DNA of 64,000 nucleotides from Streptomyces sp. NBC_00461. Its GTDB lineage: Bacteria; Actinomycetota; Actinomycetes; Streptomycetales; Streptomycetaceae. The position numbers were made by a program, and so were the translations under genes. Shown piece after piece: positions 53,898 through 57,862 of the stretch. The number at the start of each line of letters is the position of its first letter. Within the stretch, counting starts at the first letter, position 1. Under the pieces are notes generated by a model, which was not told the DNA's origin, did no database searches, and saw only the letters and a program-made list of their open reading frames with translations. The stretch covers positions 2,451,001 to 2,515,000 of the forward strand of contig NZ_CP107902.1 of assembly GCF_036013935.1 (NCBI RefSeq), given 5' to 3'.

Positions 53898-54610
53898 CCG
53901 CACTCCTGGAGGTCGAAGACCTCAAGGTCGCCTACGGCAAGATCGAAGCCGTCAAGGGCATCTCCTTCACCGTCGAAGCCGGCCAGATCGTCACCCTCAT
54001 CGGCACCAACGGCGCCGGCAAAACCACCACCCTGCGCACCCTCTCGGGCCTCCTCAAACCCCGCTCAGGCAAGATCACCTTCGAGGGCCAGCCCCTCAAC
54101 GGCATCCCCGCCCACAAGATCGTCGCCCTCGGCCTCGCCCACTCCCCCGAAGGCCGACACATCTTCCCCCGCCTCACCATCACCGAGAACCTCCAACTCG
54201 GCGCCTTCCTCCGCAAGGACAAAGAAGGCATCGAAAAAGACATCCAACGCGCCTACGACCTCTTCCCCATCCTCGGAGAACGCCGCAAGCAGGCCGCCGG
54301 AACCCTCTCCGGCGGCGAGCAGCAAATGCTCGCCATGGGCCGCGCACTGATGTCCCAGCCCAAACTCCTCATGCTCGACGAACCCTCCATGGGCCTCTCC
54401 CCGATCATGATGCAGAAGATCATGTCCACCATCGTCGAGCTGAAATCCCAAGGGACCACCATCCTGCTCGTCGAACAGAACGCCCAGGCCGCCCTCTCGC
54501 TCGCCGACCAGGGACACGTCATGGAGGTCGGCAACATCGTCCTCTCCGGCACCGGACAGGACCTCCTGCACGACGAATCGGTACGCAAGGCCTACCTCGG
54601 CGAGGACTAG
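53894..54610 (+). CDS. livF: Branched-chain amino acid ABC transporter ATPase LivF
   Basis: 238 residues. Walker A LIGTNGAGKTT, LAHSPEGRHIFPRLTI typical of LivF, signature LSGGEQQMLAMGRAL, Walker B LLMLDEPSMGLSP. GTG start overlaps the livG stop (GTGA). Last gene of the operon, followed by a strong hairpin. Confidence 0.95.
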   Translation: MTALLEVEDLKVAYGKIEAVKGISFTVEAGQIVTLIGTNGAGKTTTLRTLSGLLKPRSGKITFEGQPLNGIPAHKIVALGLAHSPEGRHIFPRLTITENLQLGAFLRKDKEGIEKDIQRAYDLFPILGERRKQAAGTLSGGEQQMLAMGRALMSQPKLLMLDEPSMGLSPIMMQKIMSTIVELKSQGTTILLVEQNAQAALSLADQGHVMEVGNIVLSGTGQDLLHDESVRKAYLGED

Positions 54611-54635
54611 CACCCCTCACCGGACACACACGACC

Positions 54636-54670
54636 GAGGCCCGCACCCCTGAACCAGGGGCGCGGGCCTC
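54636..54670. terminator. Bidirectional terminator between livF and the ANTAR regulator
   Basis: A 16-bp stem with one mismatch and a 3-base loop (gaggcccgc opens it, gcgggcctc closes it). It serves livF on the plus strand and the convergent response regulator ending at 54695. Confidence 0.9.
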
Positions 54671-54694
54671 GATCGTCCGTCTGCTGCGCGAGGG

Positions 54695-55351
54695 TCAGCC
54701 CTTCGCGGCCTTCTTCTCGTCCGCGTCCTGAATAACCGCCTCCGCGACCTGCTGCATCGACATCCGACGGTCCATCGACGTCTTCTGGATCCACCGGAAC
54801 GCGGCCGGCTCCGACAGCCCGTACTCCGTCTGCAGGATCGACTTCGCCCGGTCCACCAACTTGCGCGTCTCCAGCCGGAGCGTGAGGTCGGCGACCTCCT
54901 TCTCCAGCTCCTTCAGCTCGGTGAACCGCGAGACAGCCATCTCGATGGCCGGTACGACGTCACTCTTGCTGAACGGCTTCACCAGATACGCCATCGCACC
55001 GGCGTCCCTGGCGCGCTCCACGAGGTCGCGCTGCGAGAAAGCGGTGAGCATCAGCACCGGGGCGATGCCCTCCTCGGCGATCTTCTCGGCCGCCGAGATG
55101 CCGTCCAGCTTGGGCATCTTCACATCGAGGATCACCAGGTCCGGCTTGTGCTCGCGGGCCAGCTCGATGGCCTGCTCACCGTCACCGGCCTCGCCGACGA
55201 CGCTGTAGCCCTCCTCCTCCAGCATCTCTTTGAGGTCGAGCCGGATCAGGGCCTCGTCCTCGGCGATGACGACACGGGTCGTCAGCGGAGGCACGTGCGA
55301 CTTGTCGTCGTCGGGCGCGTCTACGGGCTGGGGCGACTCGGGGGCGGTCAC
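54695..55351 (-). CDS. ANTAR-domain response regulator (PdtaR-like)
   Basis: 218 residues. Receiver domain at about 30-145 with IAEDEALIR, the phospho-Asp in LVILDVKMP, TAFSQ and LVKPF. A coiled coil leads to the ANTAR domain at about 155-215 (RAKSILQTEYGLSEPAAF), which binds paired RNA hairpins and prevents termination. GTG 55351 follows AAGGAG. The sequence matches the PdtaR orthologue family of actinobacteria; the cognate kinase is not nearby. Confidence 0.93.
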   Translation of the reverse strand: MTAPESPQPVDAPDDDKSHVPPLTTRVVIAEDEALIRLDLKEMLEEEGYSVVGEAGDGEQAIELAREHKPDLVILDVKMPKLDGISAAEKIAEEGIAPVLMLTAFSQRDLVERARDAGAMAYLVKPFSKSDVVPAIEMAVSRFTELKELEKEVADLTLRLETRKLVDRAKSILQTEYGLSEPAAFRWIQKTSMDRRMSMQQVAEAVIQDADEKKAAKG

Positions 55352-55455
55352 GGGGGCTCCTTGTTGCGGGCCGGGCAGGTGCTGCTGCCTCTGCAGCCTA
55401 CCTAGCTGCAGCATCTCGTGGTGACCCGGTACACTTCCGAACAGTTCCACGGCCT

Positions 55456-55539
55456 GCCCGGTTGGAGGAATCTGGTCAGACTCGCGGTGCTCAAACCACC
55501 GTGCCTTCGGGCATGTGGGTTCGAATCCCACACCGGGCA
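55456..55539 (+). tRNA. tRNA-Leu (anticodon CAA)
   Basis: 84 bases, class II with a long variable arm. Acceptor GCCCGGT pairs with ACCGGGC, discriminator A. Anticodon stem CGGTG/CACCG with loop CTCAAAC gives anticodon CAA at 55492-55494, reading UUG. The T arm is GTGGG-TTCGAAT-CCCAC. CCA is not encoded. A TACACT at 55430 could be its -10 element; no good -35 is visible. Confidence 0.95.
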
Positions 55540-55552
55540 CAACGGAACCAGA

Positions 55553-55588
55553 AGCGGAGGACCACGTTCGCGTGGTCCTCCGCTTTTT
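55553..55588 (+). terminator. tRNA-Leu terminator with U-tract
   Basis: AGCGGAGGACCACG and its exact complement close on a TTCG tetraloop, followed by five T. Such a textbook intrinsic terminator is unusual in this GC-rich genome. It lies 14 bases past the tRNA and separates it from the next gene. Confidence 0.93.
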
Positions 55589-55626
55589 GCTGCACGGAGT
55601 AGCGATCAGTAACGCAGAGTTTCCGC

Positions 55627-56415
55627 ATGAACTTTCACGGCACTGAGGTTCGACAGCGTGCGCTCACGCTTCTCAGGGATGGCAACAAGAACGCAGATGT
55701 CGCCAGGACGCTCAACATTCCGCTTGGCACAATCGGCTATTGGAAGCATGCGGATCGCGCCAAGCGCGGGGAGTGCCCCGGGGCGCACAATCCGGCTTGT
55801 CCACGATGCGACGGACGCCCTCTGGACCTGGCTGCATATTCCTACTTGCTAGGTCAATACCTCGGAGACGGACACATCAGCCACTATGTGCACCACCGCG
55901 TGCCCAGCCTGATGATCTCTTGTGCCGACGCGTGGCCAGGCGTGGCGAACGAGACCGAAGCCGCGATGCGAGCCGTCTTCCCCACGAACAACGTGCATCG
56001 CGTACAGCGCATCGGTTGTCAGACCATCAAGGCTTACAACAAGCACCTGACATGCCTGTTTCCCCAGCACGGCCCCGGCAGGAAGCACGAGCGCCTCATT
56101 GCCCTCGAACCCTGGCAGCAGGACATCGTCGACGCCCACCCCTGGGAATTCATCCGCGGCCTCATCCACTCCGACGGGTGCCGCATCACGAACTGGACGA
56201 CTCGCCTCGTGGGCGGCGAACGCAAGCGCTACGAATACCCGCGGTACTTCTTCACCAACAAGTCGGACGACATCCGGAAGCTGTTCACCGACACACTCGA
56301 CAAGGTGGGCGTCAAATGGACCACCCTGGCCCGGGGCAGCGACCCGTTCAACATCTCCATCGCCCGCAAAGCCTCCGTGGCCCTCATGGACACACACGTA
56401 GGCCCCAAGTACTAA
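55627..56415 (+). CDS. HTH-LAGLIDADG endonuclease-like protein behind tRNA-Leu
   Basis: 262 residues. Residues 5-40 form a Hin/IS630-like helix-turn-helix (RDGNKNADVARTLNIPLGTI). CPGAHNPACPRC at 50-61 may bind zinc. Two LAGLIDADG-type motifs follow: YLLGQYLGDGHI at about 72-83 and FIRGLIHSDGCRI at about 172-184, both keeping the catalytic Asp. This is a single-chain homing-endonuclease layout with an added DNA-binding head. It is not inside an intron or intein. GC is visibly lower than in neighbouring genes, especially over the first 200 bases. A weak ribosome site precedes the ATG, and an in-frame TAG lies just upstream. Confidence 0.8.
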   Translation: MNFHGTEVRQRALTLLRDGNKNADVARTLNIPLGTIGYWKHADRAKRGECPGAHNPACPRCDGRPLDLAAYSYLLGQYLGDGHISHYVHHRVPSLMISCADAWPGVANETEAAMRAVFPTNNVHRVQRIGCQTIKAYNKHLTCLFPQHGPGRKHERLIALEPWQQDIVDAHPWEFIRGLIHSDGCRITNWTTRLVGGERKRYEYPRYFFTNKSDDIRKLFTDTLDKVGVKWTTLARGSDPFNISIARKASVALMDTHVGPKY

Positions 56416-56436
56416 CCTCAGCCCCCTACTTGGGGC
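56402..56436. terminator. Hairpin spanning both convergent stop codons
   Basis: GCCCCAAGTA (56402-56411) and TACTTGGGGC (56427-56436) are perfect inverted copies with a 15-base loop. The left arm holds the last codons of the LAGLIDADG gene, and the right arm holds the last codons and stop of pyk. Confidence 0.75.
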
Positions 56437-57862
56437 TGTCGTCCTCCCCGATGTGATGCACCCGCACCAGGTTCGTCGAGCCCGAGACCCCGGGGGGCGA
56501 GCCCGCCGTGATGACCACGACGTCACCCTTCTGGCAGCGGCCGTACTTCAACAGCAGTTCATCCACCTGGTCGACCATCGCGTCTGTGGAGTCGACGTGT
56601 GGGCCCAGGAACGTCTCCACGCCCCACGTCAGCGTCAGCTGGGACCGTGTCGCCGGGTCCGGGGTGAAGGCCAGGAGGGGGATCGGGGACCTGTACCGGG
56701 ACAGGCGCTTGGCCGTGTCGCCGGACTGGGTGAAGGCGACCAGGAACTTGGCGCCGAGGAAGTCGCCCATTTCCGCCGCCGCGCGGGCCACCGCGCCGCC
56801 CTGCGTGCGGGGCTTGTTGCGTTCGGTCAGGGGCGGGAGGCCCTTGGCGAGGATGTCTTCCTCCGCCGCCTCGACGATCTTCGCCATGGTCCGGACGGTC
56901 TCGATGGGGTACTTGCCGACGCTGGTCTCGCCGGAGAGCATCACCGCGTCCGTGCCGTCGATGACGGCGTTGGCGACGTCGGAGGCTTCCGCGCGGGTCG
57001 GGCGGGAGTTGTCGATCATCGAGTCGAGCATCTGTGTCGCGACGATGACCGGCTTGGCGTTGCGCTTGGCCAGTTTGATCGCGCGCTTCTGGACGATCGG
57101 GACGTGTTCCAGGGGCATTTCGACGCCGAGGTCGCCGCGGGCGACCATGATGCCGTCGAAGGCGGCGACGATGTCGTCGATGGCTTCGACGGCCTGGGGC
57201 TTCTCGACCTTGGCGATCACGGGGAGGCGGCGGCCTTCTTCGTCCATGATGCGGTGGACGTCCTGGATGTCGCGGCCGCTGCGGACGAAGGAGAGTGCGA
57301 TGACGTCGCAGCCGGTGCGCAGCGCCCAGCGCAGGTCTGTTTCGTCTTTGTCGGAGAGGGCGGGGACGGAGACGGCGGCTCCGGGGAGGTTGAGGCCTTT
57401 GTGGTCGGAGACGATGCCGCCTTCGATGACGGTGGTGTGGATGTGGGGGCCGTCGATGTCGGTGACCTGGAGGCAGACTTTGCCGTCGTCGACGAGGATG
57501 CGTTCGCCGGGGGTGACGTCGGTGGCGAGGCCGGGGTGGGTGGTTCCGCAGCCTTGTTGGTTTCCTTCGGCTTCGTCTTCTGTGGTGATGGTGAAGGTGT
57601 CGCCGCGTTCAAGGAGTGCGGGTCCTTCGGTGAAGTGGCCGAGTCGGATTTTCGGGCCCTGAAGGTCGGCGAGGATTCCGACGCTGCGGCCGGTTTCGTC
57701 GGAGGCCTTTCGTACGTGGTGGTAGCGCTCCTCGTGTTCGGCGTGGGTGCCGTGGCTGAGGTTGAGGCGGGCGACGTCCATTCCGGCTTCGACCAGGGCT
57801 TTGATCTGGTCGTAGGAGTCGGTGGCGGGCCCCAGTGTGCAGACGATCTTTGCTCGGCGCAT
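56426..57862 (-). CDS. pyk: Pyruvate kinase
   Basis: 478 residues. N-terminal RRAKIVCTLGPATDSYDQI, MDVARLNLSHG, the active-site loop VIAKVEKPQAVEAIDDIV and MVARGDLGVEMP identify the enzyme, which makes pyruvate and ATP from phosphoenolpyruvate and ADP. The B domain and the C-terminal allosteric domain (SGDTAKRLSRYRSPIPLLAF) are complete. ATG 57862. Conserved near the ANTAR regulator in Streptomyces. Confidence 0.98.
   Translation of the reverse strand: MRRAKIVCTLGPATDSYDQIKALVEAGMDVARLNLSHGTHAEHEERYHHVRKASDETGRSVGILADLQGPKIRLGHFTEGPALLERGDTFTITTEDEAEGNQQGCGTTHPGLATDVTPGERILVDDGKVCLQVTDIDGPHIHTTVIEGGIVSDHKGLNLPGAAVSVPALSDKDETDLRWALRTGCDVIALSFVRSGRDIQDVHRIMDEEGRRLPVIAKVEKPQAVEAIDDIVAAFDGIMVARGDLGVEMPLEHVPIVQKRAIKLAKRNAKPVIVATQMLDSMIDNSRPTRAEASDVANAVIDGTDAVMLSGETSVGKYPIETVRTMAKIVEAAEEDILAKGLPPLTERNKPRTQGGAVARAAAEMGDFLGAKFLVAFTQSGDTAKRLSRYRSPIPLLAFTPDPATRSQLTLTWGVETFLGPHVDSTDAMVDQVDELLLKYGRCQKGDVVVITAGSPPGVSGSTNLVRVHHIGEDDSPK

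Follow-up and report, generated by a model that had tools for sequence, protein, structure and literature searches.

A probable free-standing LAGLIDADG homing endonuclease gene beside tRNA-Leu(CAA) in Streptomyces, and the exchange of its N-terminal part together with alternative versions of the tRNA

The stretch of DNA analysed here (the window, 64,000 nucleotides of Streptomyces sp. NBC_00461; contig NZ_CP107902.1, positions 2,451,001 to 2,515,000) carries a free-standing homing endonuclease gene (HEG) directly behind a gene for tRNA-Leu(CAA). An earlier note, made from the letters of the window, had singled out the span 55456..56436; the tRNA and the open reading frame (ORF) within it are real, and its end overshoots the stop codon by 21 bases, into pyk. 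The features of the locus, including the helix-turn-helix (HTH) of the encoded protein, are:

54695..55351, minus strand: response regulator gene, which we take to be of the ANTAR type; left flank, a neighbour kept in occupied and empty loci
55386..56154 (approximate), plus strand: allelic block (tRNA leader, tRNA, spacer and HEG residues 1 to ~176), deduced from relatives and not visible in the window itself
55456..55540, plus strand: tRNA-Leu(CAA), class II (long variable arm), Rfam tRNA 47 bits
55551..55589, plus strand: strong intrinsic-terminator hairpin with T-run, 3' of the tRNA
55590..55626, plus strand: leader of the endonuclease gene
55627..56415, plus strand: free-standing HTH-LAGLIDADG HEG, 262 amino acids, ATG at 55627, stop codon 56413-56415
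55642..55767, plus strand: N-terminal HTH, residues 6-47
55774..55809, plus strand: Cys50-Cys58-Cys61 cluster, Cys50 conserved in part
55837..55872, plus strand: LAGLIDADG motif 1, residues 71-82, catalytic Asp81
56149..56181, plus strand: LAGLIDADG motif 2, residues 175-185, catalytic Asp183
56401..56437, no strand: inverted repeat formed from the 3' ends of the endonuclease gene and pyk
56426..57862, minus strand: pyk, presumably pyruvate kinase; right flank, a neighbour kept in occupied and empty loci

The tRNA gene is uninterrupted and the HEG lies outside any intron or intein, as the earlier note had stated; an Rfam scan of 54600-57000 gave the tRNA alone above cut-off and no intron family, ruling out a group I intron or other RNA at the locus. 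An integrase-type tRNA island was likewise ruled out: in the 885 bp from the tRNA to pyk lies the HEG, and no integrase gene was recognised there; in Streptomyces the HEG starts 72-188 bp past the tRNA, so not at the tRNA 3' end as in integrative elements. The ORF is indeed lower in GC than its neighbours (61.6%, versus 67.2% for pyk and 66.7% for the response regulator; window, 70.3%). It is single-copy in its own genome (10.37 Mb), where a pattern search found no second CAA tRNA gene. The inverted repeat at 56401-56437 is a possible hairpin common to the HEG and pyk, and may end both transcripts.

The HEG product appears, from its motifs and modelled fold, to be a single-chain homing endonuclease of the LAGLIDADG type that looks active and bears an additional HTH. 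Taken alone, the window protein matches HTH_23 at E=0.0015, short of the Pfam cut-off, and LAGLIDADG_3 at just E=0.08; among aligned homologues, the LAGLIDADG_3 match is found in 80 of 86 and HTH_23 in 75 of 86 (E<=0.01); the HTH of the earlier note is confirmed. Both catalytic residues it had pointed to, Asp81 and Asp183, are each conserved in 99% of 166 unique open-frame homologues, with no loss across the family. The proposed cysteine cluster holds in part: C58 and C61 occur in 93-95% of these homologues, and C50 in merely 58%. Structure prediction also supports the LAGLIDADG fold, with a mean pLDDT of 88.8 for the AlphaFold2 model and LAGLIDADG proteins as the listed PDB structure matches. 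Four of the 72 open Streptomyces copies in our 119-locus sample (L021, L195, L205, L250) have a first motif not recognisable by simple pattern, and two of these (L205 and L250) look partly degenerate. Median pairwise dN/dS, by a rough Nei-Gojobori estimate, is ~0.24 for the HEG, 0.23 for a part of pyk and 0.13 for the response regulator.

The family is widespread and linked to leucine tRNA genes. Besides the window itself, the homologues among the 120 matches listed show 75-86% identity and come from Streptomyces wherever named. Matches were found in 93 of 121 Streptomyces genomes, in at least 151 of 197 genomes of the order, and in 65 of 296 genomes (22 of 114 genera) of the class. When the gene next to each homologue was tabulated, a tRNA-Leu gene adjoined it in 324 of 326 fetched loci (134/135, 40/40, 31/31, 39/40 and 80/80 in sets that overlap somewhat in species, twice-fetched loci being counted once), which bears out the tRNA link suspected from the window. 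One of the two tRNA-less loci (L310) lies on a contig that ends in a hairpin; in the other (L098, S. turgidiscabies), positions 1-355, upstream of the HEG from inside the terminator, are unrelated sequence, through misassembly or rearrangement.

Outside the Streptomyces family, loci were fetched from 40 of 43 HEG-bearing genomes (all except G312, G349 and G468; small extra matches in G481, G504 and G557 were left out). The Streptomyces arrangement of response regulator, tRNA and HEG is seen in 30 of the 39 tRNA-linked loci, 17 of these 30 having pyk within reach. In four others, all of one genus, the HEG is divergent and lies on the 5' side of tRNA(CAA), and in the remaining five, from one mycobacterial genus, it lies 5' of tRNA-Leu(UAG), a different locus with neither the response regulator nor pyk found within 1.5 kb. 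The tRNA-Leu gene, and neither flank, is the factor common to the three arrangements. In every arrangement seen the 5' end of the HEG points toward the tRNA, and in the loci of several sets the nearest HEG match begins ~27-257 bp from it. In six loci (L014, L054, L175, L186, L307, L314) a single tRNA is followed by two endonuclease genes in tandem, which looks like the invasion of an already occupied locus by a second copy.

The locus occurs in occupied, decayed and empty forms, giving the polymorphism on which the earlier note had made its proposal depend. Among the 119 of 121 Streptomyces genomes in which the locus was read (G030 and G107 were left out), 72 have an open HEG, 23 a broken one and 24 no match. 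Two copies (L198 and L203) were reclassed as broken, each giving two tblastn pieces in different frames; both were kept in the association tables and trees described below, L203 counting against the association. The HEG-less loci retain the response regulator, the tRNA and pyk, with a tRNA-pyk gap of 31-401 bp (21 of 24 measurable) versus ~840 bp or more where the HEG is open. In an empty/occupied pair with a 96% identical left flank (L136/L103), homology covers the tRNA and its terminator and is found again from the pyk stop codon on; the empty locus may either have lost the HEG or never had it. Occupied and empty alleles thus share common flanks, as in a free-standing homing element. Median synonymous divergence gives no signal of a HEG younger than its host, being greater for the HEG than for both flanks, and block comparison was therefore used in its place.

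Few genes in a cell are considered to be as conserved as those for tRNA. At this locus, tRNA(CAA) is either of class II, with 83-88 nt and a long variable arm, or of class I, with 74-77 nt and a short arm, and 126 distinct sequences (first 72 nt) were found in 243 loci. It sits at this locus wherever positions were compared, and a pattern search judged by eye found a single CAA tRNA in 59 of 60 genomes and none in the other (G030). The apparent sole Watson-Crick reader of UUG swaps between class II and class I across the genus, in step with part of the HEG, with UUG still at leucine positions: the TTG codons of class I genomes (46 codons) lie in response-regulator and pyk columns in which, on average, 89% of the other genomes show Leu, against 90% for those of class II genomes (84 codons), which rules out that UUG no longer means leucine where the tRNA is of class I.

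The other leucine tRNAs differ in this respect. bldA (UAA) shows a one-base difference among five genomes, and the GAG and CAG tRNAs are of class II in all 21 fully read loci, with few variants. In 20 Streptomyces compared from the anticodon on, CAG was found in all 20 (17 with one form and small changes, three with a second form) and GAG in 19; no relative of either endonuclease family (the HEG or the HNH genes described next) lies within 1.5 kb of the GAG, CAG or bldA loci read. tRNA-Leu(UAG), found by pattern in 13 of the 20, varies as strongly as CAA, between classes too. Open HNH genes lie within 1.5 kb in four of these 13 loci (L353, L354, L355, L364) and a long HNH match in a fifth (L350); a second leucine tRNA seems to be accompanied by an endonuclease family unrelated to the HEG. 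These HNH proteins bear repeated N-terminal DTSHF-type units, relatives of them occur together with tRNA-Leu(CAA) on two viral stretches (L270, L297), and an HNH remnant lies beside tRNA-Leu(UAG) in the window's own genome (L359).

The class of the tRNA is independent of the host flanks, which stood in as host markers, and is tied to the N-terminal part of the HEG. By identity to the window over residues 1-137, the HEGs fall into two groups, A (55-74%) and B (27-53%). In the first sample (119 loci), group A was found with class II in 24 loci, the window among them, versus four with class I, and group B with class I in 41 versus five with class II (Fisher p=9e-11). The association was replicated in 105 other genomes (A with class II 36 versus 2, B with class I 59 versus 8; p=6e-18) and, without the top matches, in 80 genomes (11 versus 2 and 59 versus 8; p=4e-7). 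In seven class-switching sister pairs the flanks are mostly 90-100% identical, and the drop in identity either covers the tRNA alone or begins ~40-120 bp ahead of it and extends into the HEG; right borders that fall within the HEG are at about residue 137 to 197. By this comparative evidence the tRNA and the N-terminal part of the HEG have been exchanged between sister strains, a co-conversion of neighbouring sequence.

Trees of successive pieces agree. In the first sample (both flanks readable in 55 of 74 rows), tRNA class changes 5-7 times on trees of residues 1-176 (shuffled ~17.5), 18 times for residues 177-262 and 17-21 times for pieces of the response regulator and pyk. In the replication (85 of 105 rows) the corresponding numbers are 6-8 (shuffled ~28), 20-23 and 22-29. 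A larger set of 138 loci, enriched for window-like genes (166 unique HEGs, 141 with both flanks, three repeats removed), gave 14-16 changes for residues 1-137, 23 for 138-200, 31 for 201-262 and 34-37 for the flanks (shuffled ~38). Since changes are few for residues 1-176 and many for 177-262, the main border is placed near the second LAGLIDADG helix, at a resolution of 44-residue pieces and less sharply in the replication.

On the strength of the linkage to tRNA-Leu, the coexistence of presence, decay and absence, the conserved active site, the fold, and the exchange of the block independently of host flanks, all of them observed, we suggest that this is probably, though by no means securely, a free-standing homing endonuclease of the chromosome, which has tRNA-Leu loci as its target and spreads through gene conversion, bringing a replacement tRNA with it. 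Of the two fates proposed in the earlier note, targeting of the tRNA gene and homing by repair seems to fit best, as judged from sequence comparison. A selfish free-standing element would reside beside tRNA-Leu genes in actinobacterial chromosomes, and its enzyme would cut tRNA-Leu loci that lack the HEG or are differently typed, the putative target being in or right beside the tRNA gene and the carried tRNA itself presumably uncleavable. The break would be repaired from an HEG-bearing chromosome by recombination in conserved flanks, the response regulator on one side and the C-terminal half of the HEG or pyk on the other, and such repair would replace, in the recipient, both the tRNA allele and the N-terminal specificity part of the endonuclease. 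The observed block is what one would predict from a break in tRNA-Leu, or beside it, that is repaired from the nearest homology.

According to PMC2988022, a free-standing homing endonuclease cuts at a site away from its own gene and must therefore carry neighbouring DNA along. T4 SegB resembles our case as a free-standing endonuclease gene beside tRNA genes (intronless homing): it inserts at tRNA-Arg/tRNA-Ile and has the region between the tRNA genes listed as its target (PMC2988022), and SegB of T4-like phages acts at tRNA genes with cleavage peaks inside them (PMC13096335). SegB is, however, a phage-borne GIY-YIG enzyme, whereas the window HEG combines LAGLIDADG and HTH, is chromosomal and mostly single-copy, occurs across actinobacteria, and is tied to a tRNA gene that is apparently the only one of its kind and exists in alternative versions. 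The single-chain LAGLIDADG enzymes I-DmoI and I-Tsp061I are intron-encoded according to their PDB titles, unlike the window HEG, which is extra-intronic and has an N-terminal HTH and Cys cluster. A mycobacterial tRNA cluster joins a tRNA-Leu(TAG) with a short variable loop to an HNH homing gene (PMC6582537); as described there, such clusters are extra to a normal copy, whereas here the only CAA tRNA found is replaced, in a LAGLIDADG-linked block. No described system of this kind was found in the open-access literature searched.

If the enzyme cuts tRNA-Leu genes, a homing system of the chromosome would here be acting on an RNA gene that is probably essential. Engineered cleave-and-rescue drives pair a nuclease with an uncleavable copy of an essential target, and it is possible, as a tentative extension, that we are dealing with a natural bacterial gene drive of this type: the HEG would destroy the only tRNA-Leu(CAA) of the other class and install an uncleavable version with the matching N-terminal specificity domain. 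The presumed target is a sole copy in the 59 of 60 genomes mentioned above. Two haplotypes, class II with N-type A and class I with N-type B, would pursue one another through the genus, and this would account for the repeated architecture switches of the tRNA gene. The system differs from the engineered drives in being natural and bacterial, with cleavage putative. If true, it would be their natural counterpart and a possible explanation of the short-arm leucine tRNAs in actinobacteria and phages; recognition of short-arm tRNA-Leu by leucyl-tRNA synthetase (LeuRS) and the causes of tRNA turnover become directly testable.

Several observations weigh against homing into tRNA-Leu loci. Block inheritance could stem simply from non-homology between the alleles. 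Within a class the tRNA barely tracks the HEG (partial r 0.04, p=0.16 for class II; 0.11, p=0.013 for class I), and tRNA-only swaps occur next to an unchanged or similar HEG (L060/L058, L192/L188). The association has exceptions, four A/class I and five B/class II loci in the first sample and two and eight in the second, and outside the Streptomyces family it is not significant (10 changes versus 12.2 shuffled, 29 of 200 shuffles as low). In the replication, residues 177-262 also show an association, though a weaker one (0 and 3 of 100 shuffles as low), and the same holds for a single piece each of pyk and of the response regulator (1 of 100 for either). The UAG tRNA varies in eight of 13 Streptomyces loci with no HNH gene found beside it, and class I tRNA(CAA) occurs, by pattern and among the matches listed, also in families without a HEG match, which rules out that class I arises only with the HEG.

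These last two points, and the poor tracking within classes, favour the possibility that the tRNA polymorphism is driven otherwise, for instance by tRNA-cutting toxins or phage defences, with the HEG only marking a recombination hot spot; phages, moreover, carry class I tRNAs of the same body with leucine anticodons. We nevertheless find this doubtful: strong variability is confined to CAA and UAG, which have endonuclease genes beside them in at least some strains (HNH beside UAG in 5 of 13), and is not seen in UAA, CAG or GAG, and tRNA class is tied to HEG residues 1-176. Ordinary spacer homing, in which the enzyme would recognise the HEG-less junction of tRNA terminator and pyk while the tRNA hitch-hikes in the conversion tract, agrees with the L103/L136 pair, where the HEG lies between the tRNA terminator and the pyk stop codon, and with the ~27-257 bp that separate tRNA and HEG. 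It is unlikely, however, as the family also occurs on the other side of tRNA(CAA) and at the UAG locus with its different surroundings, and as the response regulator, ~100 bp off, does not hitch-hike in the first sample, whereas HEG residues up to 176, ~600 bp off, do. WhiA/DUF199 proteins have the HTH at the other end and have lost the active site, and a WhiA-like domesticated regulator or tRNA-handling factor, which would bind tRNA-Leu DNA or RNA and control or mature the tRNA (the second fate considered in the earlier note), fits poorly and is very improbable here, the HEG family showing no such loss of catalytic residues (Asp 99% kept), 47 of 119 Streptomyces, of both tRNA classes, having a broken gene or none, and its N-terminal types being independent of host flanks.

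Further observations concern the class I tRNAs. Among the matches listed, families without a HEG match differ in their tRNA(CAA): it looks uniformly of class I, from the anticodon on, in the four genomes of f20 (G316, G336, G353, G368), of class II in the four of f26, a single genus (G322, G340, G357, G371), and mixed in f11 and f30. Viral contigs (L275, L284, L286, L287, L289, L291, L298-L300) carry class I tRNAs of the same or similar body with the leucine anticodons CAA, CAG, TAG and TAA, and such phage tRNAs may be where the chromosomal class I tRNA-Leu comes from. The HEG had no match in 35 viral stretches bearing the class I tRNA body, and no viral contig had the exact peptide patterns used. 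In some class I tRNA genes, most clearly in L175 and also in L166, L169 and L185, leader and trailer are complementary by eye, which would extend the acceptor stem of the precursor.
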